Positions 5,610 through 18,225 of a stretch of DNA of 33,989 bases are shown piece by piece. A model generated the notes under the pieces. That model saw only the letters and a program-made list of their open reading frames with translations. It was not told where the DNA came from and made no database searches. The position numbers and the translations under genes were made by a program. The number at the start of each line of letters is the position of its first letter. The first letter of the stretch is position 1. This DNA comes from Chloroflexi bacterium HGW-Chloroflexi-2 (lineage in GTDB: Bacteria > Chloroflexota > Anaerolineae > Anaerolineales > Anaerolineaceae), in the NCBI GenBank assembly GCA_002840735.1, contig PHBY01000027.1, positions 20,269-54,257 of the forward strand, in the 5' to 3' direction.

Positions 5610-5757
5610 TTTATTGGAGAACATTTTAATATAATGTTCAGTATCAAACAATCCCTCTTACATCTCAGCCAGCTATGAACCTTTGTTGTGCTTTCAATTA
5701 CTGAAAGCTTGTAATTGTTTAACCAAAATTAATTGTTTTCAATGGAGGATTGAAATA

Positions 5758-8700
5758 ATGAAAACGAAAATAGGTTTTGTAAACTTGCTTATGGCAAGTG
5801 TTCTGGCATGGACTTCCATTTTAGGTGAAGTGATGCCACACCAGATTGTTCAGGCTGAAACAGCAGAGCTCTTCTTTTCAGAATACATTGAAGGTTCCAG
5901 TTTCAATAAAGCCTTAGAAATATTTAATGGGACAGGTGCACCAATCGATTTGACAGTTGGTGGTTACAACATCCAGATGTTCTTTAATGGATCATCAACA
6001 GCAGGACTAACTATTAACCTCATTGGTACTGTTTCAGATGGAGACGTATTTGTTGTTACAAATGCTTCAGCAATTGATTCAATCAAATCAGTTGCAGATC
6101 AAATTACAACCGCAACAAATTGGTACAATGGTGACGATGCAGTTGTTCTACGAAAAGGAACTTCCATAATCGATTCTATTGGGCAAATTGGTTTTGATCC
6201 AGGGTCAGCTTGGATTTCAGGTTCAATTAGTACAATAGATAATACCCTTCGCAGGAAATTTGATATTTGTGAAGGTGATTTGGAAGCCTATGATGCTTTT
6301 GATCCAGCTTATGAATGGGATGGGTTTCCAAAGGACTCAATTGATGGATTAGGCTCTCATTTAGCTGAATGTGGTCAAGGTTCAAAAGAACCAAAAATCA
6401 ATGAGTTCTTAGCAAATCACGTAGGTACAGACATCATCGAATATGTGGAAATTTATGGTGAACCAAACACAGACTATTCTGCATACAAAATTCTAGAGAT
6501 TGAGGGAGATTTTTATCAAGCTGTAACAGGAACGATCGATGAAGTTATCCCCTTAGGAACAACTGATTCGAATGGATTGTATTTAGCAAATTTACCAGCT
6601 AATGCTCTTGAAAATGGCACATTAACCCTTTTACTTGTCAAGAATTTCACAGGTGCGTTAGGCAACGATCTTGACACAAATGAAGATGGAATTTTCGACA
6701 TCTATCCCTGGGACACAATCGTTGATGCTGTTGCGGTTAATGATGGAGGAGCAAGTGACCTCACATATGGTGTGCCCGTTCTCACAGCATATTATGATGG
6801 ATTACCGTATGTTCCTGGTGGCGCTTCCCGCATTCCAGATGGCTATGACACAGATGTAGCTACCGATTGGATCCGTAACGACTTCGATCTGGCGGGTATC
6901 CCTGGATTTACAGGAACAATTACTCTGGGTGAGGCATACAACACGCCCGGCTTGCTGAATATGATCTACGAAACCCCACCACCTCCTCCAGAACAATGTG
7001 GAGATCCTTATACAACAATATCATCGATACAGGGGATTGGGCTGGAGAGTCCATTTAAAGATTCCTTTGTTTCTACTGAAGGTGTAGTAACTGCTACCTT
7101 TGATGGAAAAAATGGCTTCTTTATCCAGGACCCGATTGGTGATGATAATCCTGACTCTTCAGAGGGAATATTTATTTACTTATCAGGATTTATTCTTCCT
7201 GAAGAATTTTCCAATTGGGATACAGTTCGTGTTCGTGGCAGTGTATCTGAATTTAATGGATTAACTGAGATCACCATAACTCAATTGTGGATTTGTAACG
7301 ATATTGACCCTGAAAATTCCGCTGAGCCAATCGAAACAATAACGCCAACAGAAATCACATTGCCAGTCACAACAGTTGATGAATTCGAAAAATTTGAAGG
7401 TATGTTGGTGGCTTTACCACAAGCATTAACAATTTCAGAATATTTTAACTTTGATAGATACGGTGAAATTGTATTGACAACTGAGCGCTATCTAACTTTT
7501 ACTGCAGAGTATGAGCCCAGCATACTTGATTATTTAGATGCAGTTGAGGAATTTAAACGCAATAGAATCATTATTGATGATGGACGTACCGCACAAAACC
7601 CAGATCCAGCTATTCATCCAAATGGTTCCATCTTCGATTTAGGTAATTTATTCCGCGGAGGTGATACAGTTGCTAATGTAACCGGTATCATGGATTATGG
7701 ATTTAGTGAATACCGCATTCAACCAACCCAGGGTGCGGATTACACGGGTATTAACCCGCGTACGAATTCACCAGAGGATGTCGGTGGCGATATCAAAGTT
7801 GCCAGTTTCAATGTCCTTAATTATTTCACCACTCTTAATAGCAGGGGTGCAAACACAATTGAGGAATTTGTACGACAACGCGCAAAGATCATCGCTGCCA
7901 TATCAGTCATTGATGCAGATGTAGTAGGCTTGATGGAAATTGAAAATAACAATGCTGCCATCATGGACTTAGTAGCAGGTTTGAATGGTCTTATGGGGCA
8001 AGGCACGTACGCCTATGTTGATACAGGTGTAATTGGCACGGATGAAATCAAAGTAGCTATGATCTATAAGCCTTCAACAGTAGATTTATATGGCAGCCAC
8101 GCGATTCTGGATAATTCTGTTGATCCACGATTCCTGGACACTAAGAACCGTCCTGCGCTGGCCCAATCTTTCATGGATAAAACCAATGGTGGAGTCTTCA
8201 CGGTCGCTGTCAATCACCTCAAATCTAAAGGATCCGATTGTAATGATGTTGGTGATCCCGATCTGGGTGATGGCGCTGGCAATTGTAACCTGACACGTTT
8301 GAATGCTACACAAGCTCTAGTAGATTGGCTGGCAGATGATCCCACTGAAAGCGGAAGTAAAAACTATCTCATCATCGGTGATTTGAACTCCTACGACAAA
8401 GAAGATCCAATTGACGCCATTCTGGCAGGTCCGGATGATGTGGCAGGAACAGAAGATGATTACACCGATTTACTCTTCCATTACGTCGGTGAGGATGCTT
8501 ACACTTATGTGTTTGATGGTCAGATAGGTTATCTCGATCACGCCCTGGTTAACTCAGATCTCTTTGACATGGTAACCGGCACCACAGTATGGCATATCAA
8601 TGCAGACGAACCAGATCTGATCGATTATGACATGTCATTCAAACTTCCCGCTCAGGATGCCTTGTACGCTCCAGATCCATTCCGCTCATCCGATCACGAT

Positions 8701-9078
8701 CCGGTTATTGTAGGATTGAAGGTATGTGAACTGGTTCCCCCATCGGTAGAGGTGACTGTTACCCCTGATCTATTATGGCCTCCCAATCATAAATATGTAG
8801 ATGTGGTTGCAACCGTTACAGCATGGGATAACTTTGATCTTGATCCTCAAATCACGTTAGTTTCTGTTTCCTCCAATGAACCGGACAATGGTGACGATGA
8901 TGGCAATACAATTGATGATATTGTCATAGTAGATAAATTTACCTTCAAACTTAGAGCTGAACGATCTGATACCGGTACAGGACGAATTTACACGATCACT
9001 TACATGGTTACAGATGCATGTGGAAATACCACTTATCAATCAGCAATGGTTTATGTTCCCATCAGTATGGGCGAATAA
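5758..9078 (+). CDS. Secreted ExeM/NucH-type endonuclease with two lamin-tail domains
   Basis: The ATG at 5758 is chosen because GGAGG (5744-5748) lies nine bases upstream and a signal peptide follows; an in-frame ATG at 5683 lacks both. The product is 1106 residues. Order: signal peptide to about 33 (VQA|E), lamin-tail domain about 37-200, second LTD-like domain about 212-340, proline linker (PPPPP) near 408, OB-fold of the YhcR/ExeM type about 420-515, then an endonuclease/exonuclease/phosphatase domain about 676-987. EEP motifs: FNVLNYF, GLMEIENN (E727/E729), GDLN (D875, N877) and SSDHDP (D979-H980-D981). The C-terminal domain begins with WPPNHK near 1007. The family degrades extracellular DNA and sometimes RNA, with divalent metals. 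It is followed by an intrinsic terminator and a paralogue. The gene is visibly A+T-richer than holB or pcrA. Confidence 0.88.
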   Translation: MKTKIGFVNLLMASVLAWTSILGEVMPHQIVQAETAELFFSEYIEGSSFNKALEIFNGTGAPIDLTVGGYNIQMFFNGSSTAGLTINLIGTVSDGDVFVVTNASAIDSIKSVADQITTATNWYNGDDAVVLRKGTSIIDSIGQIGFDPGSAWISGSISTIDNTLRRKFDICEGDLEAYDAFDPAYEWDGFPKDSIDGLGSHLAECGQGSKEPKINEFLANHVGTDIIEYVEIYGEPNTDYSAYKILEIEGDFYQAVTGTIDEVIPLGTTDSNGLYLANLPANALENGTLTLLLVKNFTGALGNDLDTNEDGIFDIYPWDTIVDAVAVNDGGASDLTYGVPVLTAYYDGLPYVPGGASRIPDGYDTDVATDWIRNDFDLAGIPGFTGTITLGEAYNTPGLLNMIYETPPPPPEQCGDPYTTISSIQGIGLESPFKDSFVSTEGVVTATFDGKNGFFIQDPIGDDNPDSSEGIFIYLSGFILPEEFSNWDTVRVRGSVSEFNGLTEITITQLWICNDIDPENSAEPIETITPTEITLPVTTVDEFEKFEGMLVALPQALTISEYFNFDRYGEIVLTTERYLTFTAEYEPSILDYLDAVEEFKRNRIIIDDGRTAQNPDPAIHPNGSIFDLGNLFRGGDTVANVTGIMDYGFSEYRIQPTQGADYTGINPRTNSPEDVGGDIKVASFNVLNYFTTLNSRGANTIEEFVRQRAKIIAAISVIDADVVGLMEIENNNAAIMDLVAGLNGLMGQGTYAYVDTGVIGTDEIKVAMIYKPSTVDLYGSHAILDNSVDPRFLDTKNRPALAQSFMDKTNGGVFTVAVNHLKSKGSDCNDVGDPDLGDGAGNCNLTRLNATQALVDWLADDPTESGSKNYLIIGDLNSYDKEDPIDAILAGPDDVAGTEDDYTDLLFHYVGEDAYTYVFDGQIGYLDHALVNSDLFDMVTGTTVWHINADEPDLIDYDMSFKLPAQDALYAPDPFRSSDHDPVIVGLKVCELVPPSVEVTVTPDLLWPPNHKYVDVVATVTAWDNFDLDPQITLVSVSSNEPDNGDDDGNTIDDIVIVDKFTFKLRAERSDTGTGRIYTITYMVTDACGNTTYQSAMVYVPISMGE

Positions 9079-9331: not shown

Positions 9332-12148
9332 ATGATGAAAATCTTCCTTCACTCGATATTGTTTACTTTTCTCATGTTTCAATTCGTTGGTTCGAATCAA
9401 CAACCAATAAATATACACGCACAACCTCTTCTTGATGCGACTTTCCACCGGCTATCAGATGGAATTTTCTATCAAGATTGGTCTGATCCTGGCTTGATTA
9501 CTACGAAAGATGATTGGTCAGGGGTTGAGAACATTATTGGTTTTCGAGGAGATGGATTAACCAATAGCGATGGCAGCGACCCACAAACAATCCTACAGGA
9601 TGATATCCCTGGCGTTGTGGATGTCAATGCAAACTTGCTCAATCCCAACACATTCACCACCGGTGGCGTCACAGAATTTGAATCAACATACCAGACCATT
9701 GCATTAAGTGGATCCGGCACAGCCGATGCTCCTTATATAAAAATCACCCTGGAAACAACCACCTGCTCAGATATTCGAGTGAAATACACAATCAAAGATC
9801 TGGACGGCTCAAGTGATAACGCCATCCAACCGGTAGCCATGCATTATCGCACGGGTGGAGCTGGTAATTTCAACAATGTTCCGGAGGCATTCATACCGGA
9901 TGCCACCACCGGACCAGGGCTGGCTCATAAAGTCACACCTGTGGATGTCACTCTGCCAGGCAATTCAAACAATCAACCCAAATTGGAAATTCGCATTATG
10001 ACTGCCAATGCTGTTGGAAATGATGAATGGGTTGGAATCGATGACATTGAAATTTCTGGTAATTGTCATAACCCGTATGCCAACCCCATAACACCTACCT
10101 GCCCTTCCAGTCTATTTACATATGAAGGAATTCCTATTTCGACGACGATCTCAGCCACAGATCTGGACGGAAAAGTGGTGCAAACAACGCTTCAGAGTTC
10201 CCCCGTTATGGGAATAATGCTTGAGGAAATACAACCTGCTGTTGAAATCGGTGGTGTACTTTCCGGCACTTTGTTCATCGCAGAGAACACACCGGGAGGA
10301 ATTTACAATATTGAGCTATTATTTTCCAATGATGATCCCTCACCGCAAACTGCCAGTTGTACTATACCTGTCACTGTGGTTCCACAGGTCTGTTCAAGAC
10401 TTGATACACACCAAATTGGCGAAATCCAGGGGACTGGATCAGCCAGCCCGTTTTACGGACAAAGCAACATCACCTTGAGTGGCAATGTGACTGCTAATTT
10501 TTCAGTTGGCGGATTAAATGGCTTTTATTTACAGGATGCAAATGGTGATGAGAATGAGTTAACTTCCGATGGTATTTTTATTCGCTACAATGATCCAGCA
10601 TTAGTAGATGGTCAACCAGTTCAGGTTACCGGAAAAGTGGATGAATATTACGCCCGAACCCAGCTTTCAGAAATCAGCCAGCTCACCTTTTGTGGAGTTC
10701 CGCAAGAACTTGCTGCCACGCCGCTCTCCTTAACGGTCAATCAGCGCAGCGATTTTGAAAAATACGAAGGGATGCTGGTTACATTTCCTCAAGCCCTGAT
10801 TATCTCGGAATATTACAATTTCGATCGCTACGGTGAATTAACTCTTACATCCAACCGCCACCTTAGTCCTACCAGCCAATATGAACCTGGTTCTCCAGAA
10901 TATTTCCAGGCCGTTGAAAATTTCCTGTTGGATCGAATCATCCTGGATGATGGGCGTACTAACCAAAATCCCGATCCTGCATTTCACCCTGCTGGAACAA
11001 TTTTCAATTTGGACAACCTATTCCGTGGAGGAGATCAATTGAGAAATGTAACCGGCATTTTAGATTTCTCCATGAATGCATACCGCATTCAACCTGTACA
11101 AGGCGCTGAGCACATTCTATCCAACCTTCGCCCGGAGCAACCGGCTGATGTTGGTGGGAATATCCAAGTAGCCAGCTTTAATGTCATGAATTATTTCACA
11201 ACCCTGGGAAGCCGTGGAGCTGATACAATAGAAGAATTCAATCGTCAACGTGACAAAGTCATAGCTGCTTTAATGGTGATCGACGCTGACATCGTAGGAT
11301 TGATCGAGATCGAGAATAATTCCTTAGCTATCCAGGATCTGGTTTCTGGATTAAATACAGCGCACGGAAAAGATGTCTATTCCTATGTAGACACTGGTGT
11401 GATCGGCATCGATGAGATCAAAGTTGCCATAATTTACAAACCTGCGACAGTTTCGCTCGTTGGAAATTATGCCCTGCTTGATTCATCTGTTGATTCACGC
11501 TTTTTGGATACAAAAAACCGCCCCAGCCTGGCGCAGTCCTTTCAAGATCTCAATAATGGTGTTGTTTTTACGGTTGTAATCAATCATTTCAAGTCCAGAA
11601 GCTCCAGTTGTGACGATATCGGTGACCCAGATGTTGGTGATGGAGCAGGCAATTGCAATCTTACCCGTAAAGCTGCTGCCGAAGCACTGGTTGATTGGCT
11701 TTCTGGTGATCCAACCAACAGTGGAAGTGAACATAACCTCATCATAGGAGATTTGAATGCCTATCGCAAAGAAGCTCCCATTGTAGCCATTCTTGCTGGT
11801 GCTGATGATCTCCATTCAACAAATGATGATTACAGCAATTTAATCACCACCTTTGTGGGGGAATCTGCCTATACGTATGTTTTTGACGGTCAGGCCGGGT
11901 ATCTGGATCATGCATTTGCCAGCATTTCACTTGCACCGATGGTAACAGGCACAACCATCTGGCATATCAATGCGGATGAACCAGATTTGATCAATTATGA
12001 CATGACATATAAACAACCTGCACAGGATCTGCTCTATGCACCAGATGCATATCGATCTTCTGATCATGACCCGGTGATTATCGGATTAGATTTGACACTA
12101 CTTTCAACCCCACACACGATTATCTATATCCCTTTGATTTGCAGGTAA
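9332..12148 (+). CDS. Secreted ExeM/NucH-type endonuclease, paralogue with Y-[LI]-P-L-I tail
   Basis: Product of 938 residues; AAGGA lies four bases before the first ATG, and a second ATG directly follows, so the start may be 9335. Signal peptide to about 30 (IHA|Q). The N-terminal region (about 35-245) resembles the beta-rich module preceding the OB-fold in other secreted nucleases (NDEWVGIDDIEISG near 225-238) and has no lamin-tail domain. An Ig-like stretch follows (about 255-350), then the OB-fold (about 353-455), then the EEP nuclease (about 608-918) with GLIEIEN (E659/E661), GDLN (D807, N809) and SSDHDP (D911-H912-D913). From the OB-fold onward it is closely similar to the preceding gene product. 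It lacks the C-terminal domain and instead ends in IIYIPLICR, similar to the tail of the protease at 13281-17942. Confidence 0.88.
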   Translation: MMKIFLHSILFTFLMFQFVGSNQQPINIHAQPLLDATFHRLSDGIFYQDWSDPGLITTKDDWSGVENIIGFRGDGLTNSDGSDPQTILQDDIPGVVDVNANLLNPNTFTTGGVTEFESTYQTIALSGSGTADAPYIKITLETTTCSDIRVKYTIKDLDGSSDNAIQPVAMHYRTGGAGNFNNVPEAFIPDATTGPGLAHKVTPVDVTLPGNSNNQPKLEIRIMTANAVGNDEWVGIDDIEISGNCHNPYANPITPTCPSSLFTYEGIPISTTISATDLDGKVVQTTLQSSPVMGIMLEEIQPAVEIGGVLSGTLFIAENTPGGIYNIELLFSNDDPSPQTASCTIPVTVVPQVCSRLDTHQIGEIQGTGSASPFYGQSNITLSGNVTANFSVGGLNGFYLQDANGDENELTSDGIFIRYNDPALVDGQPVQVTGKVDEYYARTQLSEISQLTFCGVPQELAATPLSLTVNQRSDFEKYEGMLVTFPQALIISEYYNFDRYGELTLTSNRHLSPTSQYEPGSPEYFQAVENFLLDRIILDDGRTNQNPDPAFHPAGTIFNLDNLFRGGDQLRNVTGILDFSMNAYRIQPVQGAEHILSNLRPEQPADVGGNIQVASFNVMNYFTTLGSRGADTIEEFNRQRDKVIAALMVIDADIVGLIEIENNSLAIQDLVSGLNTAHGKDVYSYVDTGVIGIDEIKVAIIYKPATVSLVGNYALLDSSVDSRFLDTKNRPSLAQSFQDLNNGVVFTVVINHFKSRSSSCDDIGDPDVGDGAGNCNLTRKAAAEALVDWLSGDPTNSGSEHNLIIGDLNAYRKEAPIVAILAGADDLHSTNDDYSNLITTFVGESAYTYVFDGQAGYLDHAFASISLAPMVTGTTIWHINADEPDLINYDMTYKQPAQDLLYAPDAYRSSDHDPVIIGLDLTLLSTPHTIIYIPLICR

Positions 12149-12220
12149 GAAAAATCAAATCACATTTCGGAAAGCCAATTATTATTGCCATCCCAATGGA
12201 ACTACGCTACAATCCAAGCC

Positions 12221-13228
12221 ATGGAATGGATGATTCACGGGCACGAATGGGCTGCCCAGATACTACAGAAACATATCACACAGAACAATGTCCGGCATGC
12301 TTACCTGCTGAGTGGGGCGCCTGGTATTGGACGGCGCAGTCTGGCAATCCGCTTTGCCCAGGCGCTCAATTGCACCCAACCACCGGCTCCCGGTGAACCC
12401 TGCGGGGAATGCCGATTGTGTAAGCAGATCGCTAAAATGCAGCAGGCAGACCTGACTATTACCCAAAGTCTGGATGACGCCAGAACCATCAAGGTGGAAC
12501 AAATCCGCGAACTGCAGGGCAGCTTATCTCTGGCACCCTACGAAGCCAGATACCGGATTGCATTAATGCTCAACTTTCAGGAAGCCACTCCCAATGCCCA
12601 GAATGCCCTGCTGAAAACCCTTGAGGAAGCACCACCCAGGGTGATCCTGATTCTCACGGCTGATTCAGTGGAAAACTTGCTGCCCACCATCGTCTCGCGT
12701 TGCGAAATCCTGCGGCTACGTCCTCTCTCAGTCGACCTTTGCACCACTGCCCTCCAAAAGCACTGGCAAATCCCTGCCGAGATGGCGCATGAACTGGCTC
12801 ACTTAACATCCGGTAAAATTGGTCAGGCTGTGCGCTATTATCAGGACCCGGATCAACTGGAGAAACTGCACCAGCTCGTACAGGATGTTTTTGATCTGTT
12901 AGGCAGTTCGCTGGCTGAGCGCTTCGATTATGCTGAAAAGATAGCCGATCTCAAACGCAAGAATGTAACCCGTGAGAGTATCGCCATGCTGCTGCAAACC
13001 TGGCTCTCCCTGTGGCGCGATTTTTACATCTGTGCCAATGGTTCAGATATGCCCATGACCTTTCTAAATTTCAAATCCTACAGCCAGGGGACAGCAGAAA
13101 AATTGACTGAACCCGTGATTTACCAGCAGCTTATAATTCTAGAAACCGCCCTGGGGCAATTGGATACCAATCTGAATAGTCGTCTGTTGCTGGAGAACTT
13201 GCTGCTGGATTGGCCGAAGATAGAGTAA
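12221..13228 (+). CDS. holB: DNA polymerase III delta' subunit
   Basis: Clamp-loader subunit, 335 residues from the ATG at 12221; an in-frame TTG at 12185 would add 12 residues but has no better ribosome site. AAA+ fold: the P-loop is degenerate, GAPGIGRRS at 32-40, with Arg where the ATP-binding Lys would be. This suits delta', which does not need to hydrolyse ATP. A zinc-binding set follows (C51, C61, C64, C67; CGECRLC). The sensor region includes PNAQNALLKTLEEAPP near 125-140 and SRC in 'TIVSRCEILRLRPL'. The C-terminal collar domain follows. It stands alone between secreted-protein genes, 72 nt after the second nuclease, and may rely on readthrough; no promoter was recognised. It ends at a strong terminator. 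Confidence 0.9.
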   Translation: MEWMIHGHEWAAQILQKHITQNNVRHAYLLSGAPGIGRRSLAIRFAQALNCTQPPAPGEPCGECRLCKQIAKMQQADLTITQSLDDARTIKVEQIRELQGSLSLAPYEARYRIALMLNFQEATPNAQNALLKTLEEAPPRVILILTADSVENLLPTIVSRCEILRLRPLSVDLCTTALQKHWQIPAEMAHELAHLTSGKIGQAVRYYQDPDQLEKLHQLVQDVFDLLGSSLAERFDYAEKIADLKRKNVTRESIAMLLQTWLSLWRDFYICANGSDMPMTFLNFKSYSQGTAEKLTEPVIYQQLIILETALGQLDTNLNSRLLLENLLLDWPKIE

Positions 13229-13260
13229 AAAAACGATCAGCTCTTGCTGATCGTTTTTTT
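13227..13260. terminator. Bidirectional intrinsic terminator between holB and the protease gene
   Basis: Perfect 15 bp stem, seven A residues plus CGATCAGC, loop TCTT, then GCTGATCG plus seven T residues. The A-run and T-run give a U-tract on either strand, so it can stop both convergent genes. The stop codon of holB overlaps its first bases. Confidence 0.93.
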
Positions 13261-13280
13261 ACTAAGGAATTGTAGATACT

Positions 13281-16200
13281 TTACTTGAATATCAATGGCA
13301 AGTAGATTTTCCCAGCAGGATGAACAGTAATGGTTACTGTAGCAGTGTCCACATACTCGCTTGTCGGCATTGGAATACCCAACATGTAGTAAGTAAATGT
13401 GTCAGTTCCAAAGAAACCAACATCAGGCGTGTAAGTAAAGGACCCGTCCTGATTCAACACCAACGTTCCATGCATAGGCTCATCTTTGACATCCACAAAA
13501 ATGGCATCTGTTGGATCCAAATCAACATCATTTGCCAATACACCGGGAGCAGGTACATCCAAAACAACGTCCTGCATTGTTTCATAGCTGTCATCCATTG
13601 CTTTTGGCGAGTCATTAACATTGATTACCTTGATGGTAATGGTTGCTTCTTCACTGGTTCGCATACCATCGCTTACAGTAAAGGTAAAACTATCTATACC
13701 ATAGAAATCATCATCTGGCGTATAGGTTAATTCTGGAGCAGTTCCGCTTAAAGTACCGTGAGCAGGATCATTGACCATCCAGGTTAAGGCACCACCAGGA
13801 TAAGTGTCAGAAGCTGTTAATGTGATATCCAAAGGTGTTTCTTCCAGCGTCTCCAATTTCTGGTCGTCTGCAAAAGGTTGGTCATTTACGATGAAGGAAG
13901 CAAAGGCTGTTTCCTCCATCATACCAAATCCATCAGCTGTGTGCATAACATTATTTGTGATCGTGTCACCAAATTTCAATCCAGAATCCACTATAACACC
14001 AAATGTTATCACAACGGGTTCTGCTCCAGCTTCTGCATAGTCAAAACAGATAATATCACCACTGGAAGGAGCCCAATCATTATATGCATATTTTGAACCA
14101 AGTGTCGCATCAATGTTTTCAAGGCCTACTGCGCCTAGATTATCCCAAGAGCCAACAACATTATCATACGCAATAACGAGGTCAGGATATCCAATAGAAG
14201 GATCCACTTCTCTCCAACCCCAGATTTGATAATCCATCTTTAGATTAGGATCTTCGAAATCTTCGATATCATCAAATTCAACTACCCACAAAGCACCACC
14301 TGCAAATGTAACACCTGTAACTCCTTTGTTTGTTGCTGCATCATAGACAATCACAGTATCGCGCATCCATTCCGCCACAATACCATTAGGTGTGGTAGGA
14401 TCTGGGAAATCTTGGATCTCCCAATTCCACCAATAATCAAGGATTCCATACATGTACACATAACCATCAGACGTAAAGCGAGGTGTGCTTGGAATTGGAG
14501 AACCATAATACTGTGTACCTAGACCTAAGCCAGACCATGCCCAATGAATACTATCCCCCGCAAGACCAGCAATGGTTGGGTAACCAAATTCAGTAAATGC
14601 ATCCATATAACCGCCCCATGGGGTATCACAATATGTTGGATTGATTGTGTTATCTGAGACAATATAGGTGTATTCGATTTTTGGCATTGTGCCTTCCCAA
14701 TTGATCGAATCATTTACTGGATCATATGTGGCTGGAGTGAATGTACCAGTCGTCTCTAATGAACCTGCAACATAAGTCACACCTTCGGGCAAAACATCAT
14801 CAATTACATAATGAAGGTCAGCTCCTGTTCTATTCGGGGCTACAGTAATCGTGTATGTTAACACCTCACCCTCATCCCCATAATCAGCAGACACCTCTTT
14901 GGTCACATCATCATATCGACGGTAGAGATTAACTTCAGTTTGACCAATATTGCCTGCACTCGCAGAATCAGAACCCACACTGAACCAACCATACCAGGCT
15001 GAGAGTGGTTCCATCTCTGGGATAGCCCAGGTGACTTCCAGATCAAACATTTCCAAAGCTGGAACTGCTGCTGGACCTGTGACTTCAAAATTGGTCGATG
15101 GATTCTCTGGGACAACCGCTAGAGCAAGTGTTATATCGTCCGGAGTAGCAGTACCACCCCAATTTTGAACAAGCACCCACCATTGATACTCGATTGGATC
15201 TACCCAACTCAGATATTCCAACGCCGCACCGGTTGCTGCTGCATCCCATAGCGTTGCTTCAGAAGGAACTGGACCATAACCAAAGAATAAATCCAGATCC
15301 GATGCAGAAGTCTCTAAAATCTCCATGACTACCCGTTTTGTACCAGCTGGAATATCAAAAGTCGTATACCAGACATCGCTTAGATCATCAAATGGATCAC
15401 CATTCGTTGGATCAACTGGTAATTCAAACTCAAACAATTCAGCTTCAGTTAAACCCGATTGCTTTATAGTGAGATCTGAAATTTCAATCGCATATAGATC
15501 TTCCAAAATCACACCACCAGCATCTCGATAGACATTTTTCTTAACCAAAGCTGGCAAGTTTCCCGCATCTGGTTTTACTGCCAAGGGAATACGAACATCA
15601 GTAATGGCTTCACCAGTTCCATGTGTGCTATCCGTATCAAATGTGACGGAGGCAAATTGCCAGGTGCCAATATCAGCAGCCATTACATCAATTTCAAAAA
15701 GTACTTCCTGTGTGTCACCGGCAAGAATATCAAAAGCGGATGGTGTAACAGTGATTTCAATCCCAACAGGAGCAACAGCAACTGCAGTGTATGAACCATC
15801 AGCAACAGCTGTGAATGTTCTGGTAAACGAGCATTCACCAACACACTGACTATTCTGATAAGAGGGGATATTCAAAGTTTTGACATCTCCTCCTTCAGCC
15901 GGATCAGCATCCAGAAAATTATCCCTGGTTTCATCCATGGTTAAGCCGACTAGTGCAGCTTTCGTCAAGTCAAGACGCCCATTACCATCATCAAATGCAT
16001 CTGTTGGAGTTATACCATTATCTTTAAGCATATTCTCATCAAACGCTGACATGGTAAGAGCTGATTTGATTTGCATGGGTGTCCATGTGGGGAATAAATC
16101 TTTCATCAATAGGATGGATCCTGCCACATGTGGACTTGCCATCGAGGTACCGGACATCAAATCAATTTCGTAACTGTTATTAACACCACCAAAAGGCGCT

Positions 16201-17942
16201 GTTTCTCCAGGTGTGTTGTAGGCAGCCAAAATATTTGTGCCGGGGGCTGCTACTTCTGGTTCTAAAATGTCTAATAATCCATATGGTCCACGTGAGCTAC
16301 CAGAAGCCAAAACATCAGCCCAAATGGTTTTGAATGCTGCTACCTGATCTGAATATGCTGATGTCATCAAAGTGTCAGTCATCAAAGCGACGATAGCTTC
16401 ACCATCTTCTTTGTCTAACATTGCAGAAGGGATAGTTGTGCCCTCAATACCAGCCATCACGATAGGCGGACCACCCGCATTGTTGTAGACTAATACGCCA
16501 ACGGCTCCCGCGGCGGTGGCATTATTGATTTTTATAGCAAAACTACAAGTTCCACGAGAAATTAACGCGATCGACCCATTAAAATAACTTGGTGTGAATG
16601 GATCACATCCATCAAAATTATCTGCTACATCATCGCCAGCCCAACGAATAGGTAAATCTACCAAATCCGTCGAGAAAGGAACACCCACACCCGGCAAAGC
16701 GATTGCTTCAAATGGAACCCCGCTGGGTTCGTAAACCTCAACAGGATATCCAAAAATGCGACCATGGGTGCTATTCGCAACTACAACTGACCAGGGTGGG
16801 GCTTTATAGACAGTGGATCCATTGGGACCACTGTTTCCAGCAGATGTTGCGGTAAGAATGCCTGCATGCATAGCATCCAGCATAGCCAACTCGACTGGGT
16901 TCTCGTAAGGGTTCACTGCCCCAGATGTTGGTCCAATTGAATAATTGAGAACATCCACACCATCCAAAATTGCTTGTTGAACCGCAGCCAAAGATGCAGC
17001 ATTTGGACACCCATCCTCGTAACAGACATCATAAGCAATGATATTTGCATGCGGAGCCATACCTGAGATTGACAGTGTAATCCCGTTATAATCCACATCC
17101 AGGTAGTTACCAGCAGTCGTTGAAGCAGTGTGTGAACCATGCGCATGAGTATCTTCACCAAAAACCGCTTCATTTGCTTGGGTATACGCATAAACACCAA
17201 CTAATTTATCATTACAGACATAATTGGTTGAGTCTGTCAAACATAGGCCTTTGTAGACTCCTTCACCAAAAGGATTCGTGTGATCATAACCATCGCCACC
17301 AATATCAGCGAATGATGGATGATCCATATTAATGCCTGTATCAAGGATACCCGCAATTAATCCTTCACCTTTTGTAAATATTCCACCAGGAGTACTGGTT
17401 CCTTCCCAGATAGTATCTACCCCTAAGAATCCAGGGCTAACATCTGTATTGATTTGCCAGAGTTCATTGGGATAGACCCCCCGAACACCAGGTAAAGTCA
17501 ACAATTGAGCTGCTTCTTCAGGGCTCATTTTGGCAGAAAATCCATTTAGTATTACATCATAGCGAAATTCAATGGCTAATTTTCTGCCTAATGTGATTTC
17601 AGCGCTCTTAATAAAACTGTCCTGTTCAGCTTTTAGAAATCGCAGATATGATACAGCTGCAGGACTATCCAATTCTAATTTTCCTTCATCTGTTCTGTCT
17701 ATGGTTCCAAACCCAGAAATCTCACCTTCTAGTGATGCAAGAGAAGGCTCTTCCAACAGGACAATGAAACTATCTGCCTTGGAAAAACTTTGAACCCAGG
17801 CTAATTCAGCTGGTTCTGGATCCCCTAAACCTTTTTCCCAGGTAACATTGCCTGTTGGTGCTGGGGTTTGAGCAATTGCTGGTGAAACCACCATCGCCAG
17901 TACTACCATTATTGCAAAGATTTTAAATAAATTTCGTTTCAT
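13281..17942 (-). CDS. Secreted subtilisin-like serine protease (S8) with PA, DUF11-like and cadherin-like domains
   Basis: The ATG at 17942 is chosen (1553 residues) because AGGGAG lies six bases upstream; an ATG five codons earlier would overlap that site. Signal peptide to about 25 (AIAQ). An I9-type propeptide spans about 55-165. The S8 catalytic triad is readable: D201 (GILDTGIN), H268 (HAHGSHTAS) and S600 (SGTSMASPHVAG). A PA domain is inserted between His and Ser (about 410-520; GTCSFAIKINNATAAGAVGVLVYNN). Further on come beta-rich domains, a DUF11-like repeat (about 1025-1090; VLTYTITVAPN...LPEGVTYV) and two cadherin-like/Big-type repeats (about 1352-1545; YTPDDDFYGIDSFTF and YTPDVGFFGTDTFTY). 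It ends in KIYLPLIFK, a tail shared with the second nuclease. Probable role: extracellular protein degradation or cell-surface processing. Confidence 0.92.
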   Translation of the reverse strand: MKRNLFKIFAIMVVLAMVVSPAIAQTPAPTGNVTWEKGLGDPEPAELAWVQSFSKADSFIVLLEEPSLASLEGEISGFGTIDRTDEGKLELDSPAAVSYLRFLKAEQDSFIKSAEITLGRKLAIEFRYDVILNGFSAKMSPEEAAQLLTLPGVRGVYPNELWQINTDVSPGFLGVDTIWEGTSTPGGIFTKGEGLIAGILDTGINMDHPSFADIGGDGYDHTNPFGEGVYKGLCLTDSTNYVCNDKLVGVYAYTQANEAVFGEDTHAHGSHTASTTAGNYLDVDYNGITLSISGMAPHANIIAYDVCYEDGCPNAASLAAVQQAILDGVDVLNYSIGPTSGAVNPYENPVELAMLDAMHAGILTATSAGNSGPNGSTVYKAPPWSVVVANSTHGRIFGYPVEVYEPSGVPFEAIALPGVGVPFSTDLVDLPIRWAGDDVADNFDGCDPFTPSYFNGSIALISRGTCSFAIKINNATAAGAVGVLVYNNAGGPPIVMAGIEGTTIPSAMLDKEDGEAIVALMTDTLMTSAYSDQVAAFKTIWADVLASGSSRGPYGLLDILEPEVAAPGTNILAAYNTPGETAPFGGVNNSYEIDLMSGTSMASPHVAGSILLMKDLFPTWTPMQIKSALTMSAFDENMLKDNGITPTDAFDDGNGRLDLTKAALVGLTMDETRDNFLDADPAEGGDVKTLNIPSYQNSQCVGECSFTRTFTAVADGSYTAVAVAPVGIEITVTPSAFDILAGDTQEVLFEIDVMAADIGTWQFASVTFDTDSTHGTGEAITDVRIPLAVKPDAGNLPALVKKNVYRDAGGVILEDLYAIEISDLTIKQSGLTEAELFEFELPVDPTNGDPFDDLSDVWYTTFDIPAGTKRVVMEILETSASDLDLFFGYGPVPSEATLWDAAATGAALEYLSWVDPIEYQWWVLVQNWGGTATPDDITLALAVVPENPSTNFEVTGPAAVPALEMFDLEVTWAIPEMEPLSAWYGWFSVGSDSASAGNIGQTEVNLYRRYDDVTKEVSADYGDEGEVLTYTITVAPNRTGADLHYVIDDVLPEGVTYVAGSLETTGTFTPATYDPVNDSINWEGTMPKIEYTYIVSDNTINPTYCDTPWGGYMDAFTEFGYPTIAGLAGDSIHWAWSGLGLGTQYYGSPIPSTPRFTSDGYVYMYGILDYWWNWEIQDFPDPTTPNGIVAEWMRDTVIVYDAATNKGVTGVTFAGGALWVVEFDDIEDFEDPNLKMDYQIWGWREVDPSIGYPDLVIAYDNVVGSWDNLGAVGLENIDATLGSKYAYNDWAPSSGDIICFDYAEAGAEPVVITFGVIVDSGLKFGDTITNNVMHTADGFGMMEETAFASFIVNDQPFADDQKLETLEETPLDITLTASDTYPGGALTWMVNDPAHGTLSGTAPELTYTPDDDFYGIDSFTFTVSDGMRTSEEATITIKVINVNDSPKAMDDSYETMQDVVLDVPAPGVLANDVDLDPTDAIFVDVKDEPMHGTLVLNQDGSFTYTPDVGFFGTDTFTYYMLGIPMPTSEYVDTATVTITVHPAGKIYLPLIFK

Positions 17943-18225
17943 TAGATTCTCCCTCATAAAAATTGAAATGATTTTCCCTATTCATTGGATACATTGATTT
18001 TATTTTCAGCGCACCTCCCTTTCTAAAGGTGAAAAATCAGAACGATTAACCGAAAAACCTCCATTGATGAAATAATCAACCATTTCAGCAACAGATTGGT
18101 TTTTCTTTGGATACAATTAATAAAACGTTTGCATTGACCAATAAGGATGAAATCCTCACACTTATAGTATAGTAATTTAAATAATTCAGTCAACCTAAAA
18201 CTTTTCTCAATTGCTTACAAATTCC

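Follow-up and report, generated by a model that had tools for sequence, protein, structure and literature searches.

A short helix-free C-terminal tail on exported proteins of Chloroflexota and its relation to the catalogued YLP-box

Introduction

PEP-CTERM, LPXTG, GlyGly-CTERM and MYXO-CTERM are C-terminal signals that occur as a suffix on unrelated proteins with signal peptides, many per genome. Signals of the PEP-CTERM/LPXTG type are described as tripartite, consisting of a motif, a transmembrane helix and a basic cluster (PMC3237569), and MYXO-CTERM is also described as tripartite and has the helix. The C-terminal signal of type IX secretion is about 80 residues long (PMC7468200), and PorU, the sortase of this system, belongs to the gingipain family (PMC7468200, PMC4560394) and has a conserved Arg 32 residues past its catalytic Cys (PMC4560394). 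Moreover, Chloroflexota have been reported to be without BAM and LPS genes, and some of them show extra envelope layers (PMC13319060).

We analyzed a stretch of 33,989 nucleotides from Chloroflexi bacterium HGW-Chloroflexi-2, here referred to as the window. The initial annotation had proposed that two secreted proteins in it share an undescribed C-terminal signal, possibly for sorting or anchoring. In fact, NCBIfam release 20.0 already holds this motif in NF053834 (ultrashort_CTERM) and NF050076 (sort_motif_YLP), models of 10 and 11 positions that are both designated “YLP-box putative sorting motif-containing protein” and name no mechanism. As for the literature, among the papers listed in our searches we found none whose title concerns the motif, the model names or a C-terminal signal of Chloroflexota. 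The results below characterize the tail as a real, lineage-restricted and helix-free C-terminal tag on exported proteins, for which sorting or anchoring after export is the most likely, although unproved, reading.

Results and Discussion

Two tailed proteins in the window

The second ExeM/NucH extracellular nuclease of the window (positions 9332..12148, forward strand) has 938 residues counted from the first ATG and matches NF033681 with 559.6 bits (cut-off 300). It ends with IIYIPLICR (12119..12145, forward strand), of which YIPLICR occupies 12125–12145. On the reverse strand, an S8 subtilase of 1558 residues (13281..17957), assigned PA, fn3 and Big_9/cadherin-like domains by domain profiles, ends with KIYLPLIFK (13284..13310, reverse strand), of which YLPLIFK occupies 13284–13304. 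Both proteins have signal-peptide-like N-termini according to our own hydrophobicity rule, which is not SignalP, and their bodies are unrelated in Pfam and NCBIfam (ExeM/NucH with Exo_endo_phos vs Peptidase_S8 with Big_9/cadherin-like domains). The near-identical tails that had been noticed exactly at the stop of two unrelated proteins with N-terminal signal peptides are thus confirmed in the sequence. In addition, the profile matches stop short of the tails, the ExeM match at residue 921 of 938 and the Cadherin_5 match at residue 1524 of 1558. The two nucleases of the window adjoin each other: the first (5683..9078, forward strand) contains a lamin-tail (LTD) domain, ends with YVPISMGE and carries no tail. 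An ExeM homologue from family f2 (G012) has a similar end, VTVPLNQGN, and the end of the first nuclease therefore looks like the close of a shared domain, as had been supposed.

Both tailed proteins show the YLP-box position as we read it from the model name, namely the extreme C-terminus of an exported protein, and we searched their ends with the two models. The S8 tail scored over the curated cut-off of 10 for NF053834, with 12.6 bits (E 0.11) in a scan of the last 60 residues and 13.3 bits in a six-frame search; a scan of the whole protein did not list it at E up to 0.1, and NF050076 was not reported for it. The nuclease tail was matched by neither model at E up to 10, a search in which HMMER filters can drop weak matches. 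Among ten tails of several families scanned at high E, NF050076 and/or NF053834 was reported for seven, six of them over the cut-off, and among ten ends from the window and its own genome, nine of them tailed, four were reported and three, including the S8 tail, passed the cut-off. Five other tails of the own genome, besides that of the nuclease, were unreported or scored under the cut-off. A profile search of the own genome with NF053834 gave ten matches. Since 11 of 14 control genomes also scored in this search, a score is no proof by itself, and at the three best-scoring places we found no ORF with the tail at its end. Hence the window adds one standard member (S8 subtilase) and one divergent member (nuclease) to the catalogued YLP-box.

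Anatomy and register of the tail

In the own genome, 34 matches were obtained with a broad stop-anchored pattern, against 21 for the control read backward. Reading 30 own-genome loci by frame yielded many long tailed ORFs together with some short chance frames. The window and 20 other own-genome stretches contain 17 ORFs that we called tailed, 15 of them with a signal-peptide-like start. The two others are an ORF of 122 residues (L058) and a false call (L070, EEWLPFLQGW), and dropping the latter leaves 16 own-genome tails; the strict pattern caught 4 of these 16. Two loci of the own genome concern C25 peptidases. A C25 peptidase with 741 residues and the off-consensus tail FSHLPVLFK is encoded at L242:4959-7184, on the window's own contig (C30) and 13 kb to the left of the window, and the cluster L062:3987-16055 contains a tailed C25, an untailed C25 resembling a lipoprotein and two more tailed proteins close by.

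The whole tailed set was compiled from 61 stretches, of which 40 come from 32 other Chloroflexota genomes and the rest from the own genome. It comprises 69 ORFs of more than 120 residues (16 own, 53 other) that end in variants of [VI]-[YFW]-L-P-L-[VI]-x-[RK]. The aromatic is Y in 57, F in nine and W in three tails, followed by L in 64, P in all 69, L in 62 and V (32) or I (28); the seventh place is R in 49 or K in 19, and 68 of the 69 tails stop there. Variants with residues beyond the basic one also occur (VYLPFVNKN), as does one that is without it (LYLPIIFSP). The information content is 3.4–4.3 bits at the conserved Y, L, P and L and at the final K/R, five positions in all, vs 0.4–0.8 bits at positions -12 to -2, and the conservation is limited to the last eight residues. 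This consensus and register are partly built in because the pattern used to choose most stretches already contained the motif; in particular, P and the tail length are partly imposed by the search expression and by the selection. We therefore also counted all occurrences of the core motif. In ORFs with a signal peptide (71 occurrences in 100,723 residues), 57 lie exactly seven residues from the end, one at eight and 13 beyond 12, whereas six of 38 occurrences in ORFs without a signal call lie at seven. The bycatch occurrences, which the selecting patterns do not match and which are free of most selection bias, agree with this, with eight at distance seven, two elsewhere within 5–15 and 39 internal. 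The tail thus belongs to the C-terminus and not to internal positions. Its synonymous codons differ, with all six Leu codons at position 1, all four Pro codons and all three stops in use, and the signal accordingly resides in the protein.

One alternative is that the tail is the last strand of an adjoining beta domain, or a coincidence. AlphaFold, run on the S8 end as a single sequence, does draw a strand at the tail, at a mean pLDDT of only 38.8, which is uninformative. The 150 residues preceding the tails, however, fall into 50 groups distinct by BLASTP (E 1e-3), profile matches end ahead of the tails, and five of the 69 tails come after Pro-containing low-complexity linkers. With this diversity upstream and the fixed register, the tail stands separate from any one domain, its likeness among proteins is not due to chance, and we regard this alternative as hardly credible.

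The strict register could also point to a tag for quality control or turnover, read by an extracytoplasmic protease of the PDZ type. Proteases of this type that read C-termini usually read hydrophobic ends, and the basic last residue of the tail is unlike these. Furthermore, the carriers are large secreted enzymes with complete domains, and a turnover tag is accordingly very unlikely.

Distribution among genomes and export of the carriers

Within the genus, all eight genomes contain a strict match, with 26 matches vs 8 in the control, and each of the 23 genus loci outside the own genome holds a frame of at least 109 residues with the tail at its end. Across 301 evenly drawn Chloroflexota genomes, the DNA pattern gave 159 matches vs 32 for the reversed control (summed by hand), and 51 genomes had at least one strict match. 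The impression that such tails recur in secreted proteins of Chloroflexota is therefore borne out, for part of the phylum. Among 29 loci read from this search, several single matches are chance matches in short frames (L078, L079, L080), and the control count reaches two in 2 of the 34 genomes with at least two strict matches (G286, G000). Two other phyla showed no excess of the pattern over the reversed control in the genomes sampled: the phylum to which the Paenibacillus genome G312 belongs gave 35 matches vs 38 (119 genomes) and the third phylum 9 vs 18 (118 genomes, with G311 set aside), both summed by hand. Unlike the other genomes sampled from its phylum, the bin G311, named uncultured Acidobacteria, shows eight strict matches vs none in the control and several tailed ORFs (L207–L210), which may reflect a contaminated bin or lateral spread. 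Families are given here by the labels that the search tool assigned (f1, f2, f23, f33 and others); f23 includes Chloroflexus, as its member G059 shares both match places with the genome behind L105, whose record is named Chloroflexus.

Tailed ORFs are enriched in signal-peptide-like starts (60 of 67 vs 122 of 733 other ORFs), as had been predicted. The enrichment holds in the own genome (15 of 17 tailed vs 49 of 286 untailed ORFs; Fisher 1.7e-9) and in the other genomes (45 of 50 vs 73 of 447; 3e-26), with an identical rule for both groups that over-calls some cytoplasmic proteins. A loose lipobox rule matched five of 60 tailed proteins with signal peptides vs 33 of 119 untailed ones, and these five matches mean that some tailed proteins may be anchored twice.

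Comparison with known signals and interpretation of the tail

Like PEP-CTERM, LPXTG, GlyGly-CTERM and MYXO-CTERM, the tail is a suffix on unrelated proteins with signal peptides and is found many times per genome. The difference lies in the helix: in LPXTG, PEP-CTERM and GlyGly-CTERM it follows the motif, and MYXO-CTERM has it as well, whereas the YLP tail ends within seven residues and a crude C-terminal hydrophobic segment was seen in two of 60 tailed proteins. The tail, with 7–9 residues and conservation in the last eight only, also differs from the type IX signal of about 80 residues. Thus, a catalogued C-terminal signal can do entirely without a membrane helix.

We consider it probable that the tail is a C-terminal tag without a transmembrane segment that is read after export and sorts or anchors exported proteins at the outer envelope; that NCBIfam curators named the YLP-box a putative sorting motif supports a sorting role. 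The N-terminal signal peptide would export the tailed protein, its last seven residues and free carboxyl end would then be recognized outside the cytoplasm, and the recognized protein would be directed to the outer layers of the envelope or retained there. In this reading, recognition after export and a surface fate are what we infer. Being short and countable, such a tag on secreted enzymes predicts the cargo from sequence and makes surface placement in Chloroflexota testable.

Two narrower forms of this sorting or anchoring reading concern the recognizing partner; the confidence expressed in each of the readings is a share. In the first, the tail docks non-covalently: its hydrophobic strand with a basic end binds in a groove of a protein or layer of the envelope, and no enzyme processes it. 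This form agrees with a very short tail at a free end and without a transmembrane segment, and with the multilayered envelopes described for some Chloroflexota without BAM or LPS genes (PMC13319060). Moreover, sortase, exosortase and C25, the three enzyme families tested, all fail to follow the tail strictly, as detailed below. We hold docking to be possible, if rather unlikely. The second form assigns the tail to a C25 (gingipain/PorU-family) peptidase, which would read it, cut nearby and perhaps join the newly formed C-terminus to a carrier in the envelope, in the manner of PorU.

Candidate partners of the tail

The initial annotation had suggested checking whether the motif count tracks a candidate processing enzyme. 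Among the 201 genomes searched first, sortase (PF04203) is present in 138 and exosortase (PF09721) in 17. No PF04203 was found in G175 and G207, which have five and two tail matches and whose tailed ORFs were read, and none of the main tailed families f1, f23 and f33 has PF09721, although the tailed genome G018 has one. Both enzymes were rejected as partners because these genomes have tails without them.

C25 was tested because one tailed protein of the own genome is a C25 and PorU belongs to the gingipain family. At a line of 150 bits, which was drawn after the tables were seen, C25 is present in 31 of 34 genomes with at least two strict tail matches, 5 of 17 with one and 6 of 250 with none (Fisher 5e-32). 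At the family's own cut-off, the figures are 31 of 34 vs 12 of 250 genomes without tail matches (3e-28). The association holds as well in the remaining 100 genomes, which are not among the first 201: 11 have both, three C25 only, seven the tail only and 79 neither (6.5e-8), or 11, 7, 7 and 75 in the same order at the family cut-off (4e-6). The genomes are related, and all of these p-values therefore overstate the significance; counted by family, the association is 8 of 11 vs 4 of 70. C25 also tracks the tail better than ExeM, the cargo control, does in the 201 genomes (21 of 23 vs 3 of 168 for C25; 13 of 23 vs 8 of 168 for ExeM). Within f1, five genomes with tail matches have a strong C25, and of the two without tail matches one is without C25 and the other has a partial match of 26.8 bits. 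In the aligned C25s the Cys/His dyad is kept (His in 51 of 52, Cys in 50 of 52), and in a PDB comparison the C25 of L231 is nearer PorU (9.9e-9) than gingipain (1.2e-5).

These findings supply the first candidate gene for testing the tag, but other findings stand against C25 as its reader. G157 (99% complete; L145, L146) and G283 (L125) have tails on proteins with signal peptides and no C25 match; G215 (98% complete, one contig) has the tailed frame L086 and no C25, and G022 (84% complete) and G286 are also without it. Moreover, 30 of the 52 C25s themselves fit a tail rule, as cargo would. The Arg of the PorU type is missing in 50 of 52, as judged by eye with PorU outside the alignment; the two that have it are both from G018. 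The own-genome C25 of L062 is nearer gingipain R (7.5e-12) than PorU (4.4e-7). Because of the tails without C25, the C25s tailed like cargo and the missing Arg, we do not name C25 as the reader. The tail thus shares with type IX secretion the company of a C25 family, but not the conserved Arg of PorU. As to such tracking, the statistical association with C25 stands, while sortase, exosortase and C25 as a universal partner do not.

A C25 reader is accordingly doubtful. Its fuller version is somewhat more doubtful still: a C25, as a distant relative of PorU, would read the C-terminal heptapeptide and attach the cargo to the outer layer, forming a separate post-export system for the BAM-less envelope of Chloroflexota. 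A search for literature on C25 or PorU in Chloroflexota gave nothing on sorting in this phylum among the 10 of 14 papers listed, at the level of titles and abstract openings.

The C25 tails were also suspected to be systematically off-consensus, with the aromatic missing in 9 of 14 vs 2 of 78 elsewhere, a contrast inflated because Tyr was part of the pattern that selected the greater part of the comparison sequences. We do not claim such a bias, since the difference was not significant once the Tyr-selected sequences were left out (p=0.32).

ExeM with and without the tail, and neighboring genes

The 201 genomes contain 30 ExeM loci, of which 27 are readable, the frames of L172, L181 and L182 running beyond the sequence end. 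The tail or a near variant is found in eight of the 27 (G041, G050, G085, G109, G117, G111, G175 and G207) and is absent from ExeM in all six of the sister family f2 and all four of f23. ExeM with and without the tail is “sequence suffix” behaviour, as described for PEP-CTERM and LPXTG (PMC3237569). The ExeM of Shewanella is reported to have a signal of the GlyGly type, whose processing was not needed for activity (PMC6085458).

Neighbor genes common to several genomes were generic, namely a sensor-kinase-like group (13 of 33) and an ABC ATPase group (5 of 33), counted without a background comparison. In f33, coordinates place a C25 gene about 1 kb away from a gene for sortase (PF04203) in each of the six genomes compared (G117, G085, G041, G109, G050 and G077), and three of these C25s (L224 of G117, L227 of G077 and L254 of G085) end with LYLPLTIADY, LYLPLAIADY or YYLPMLRLDH.
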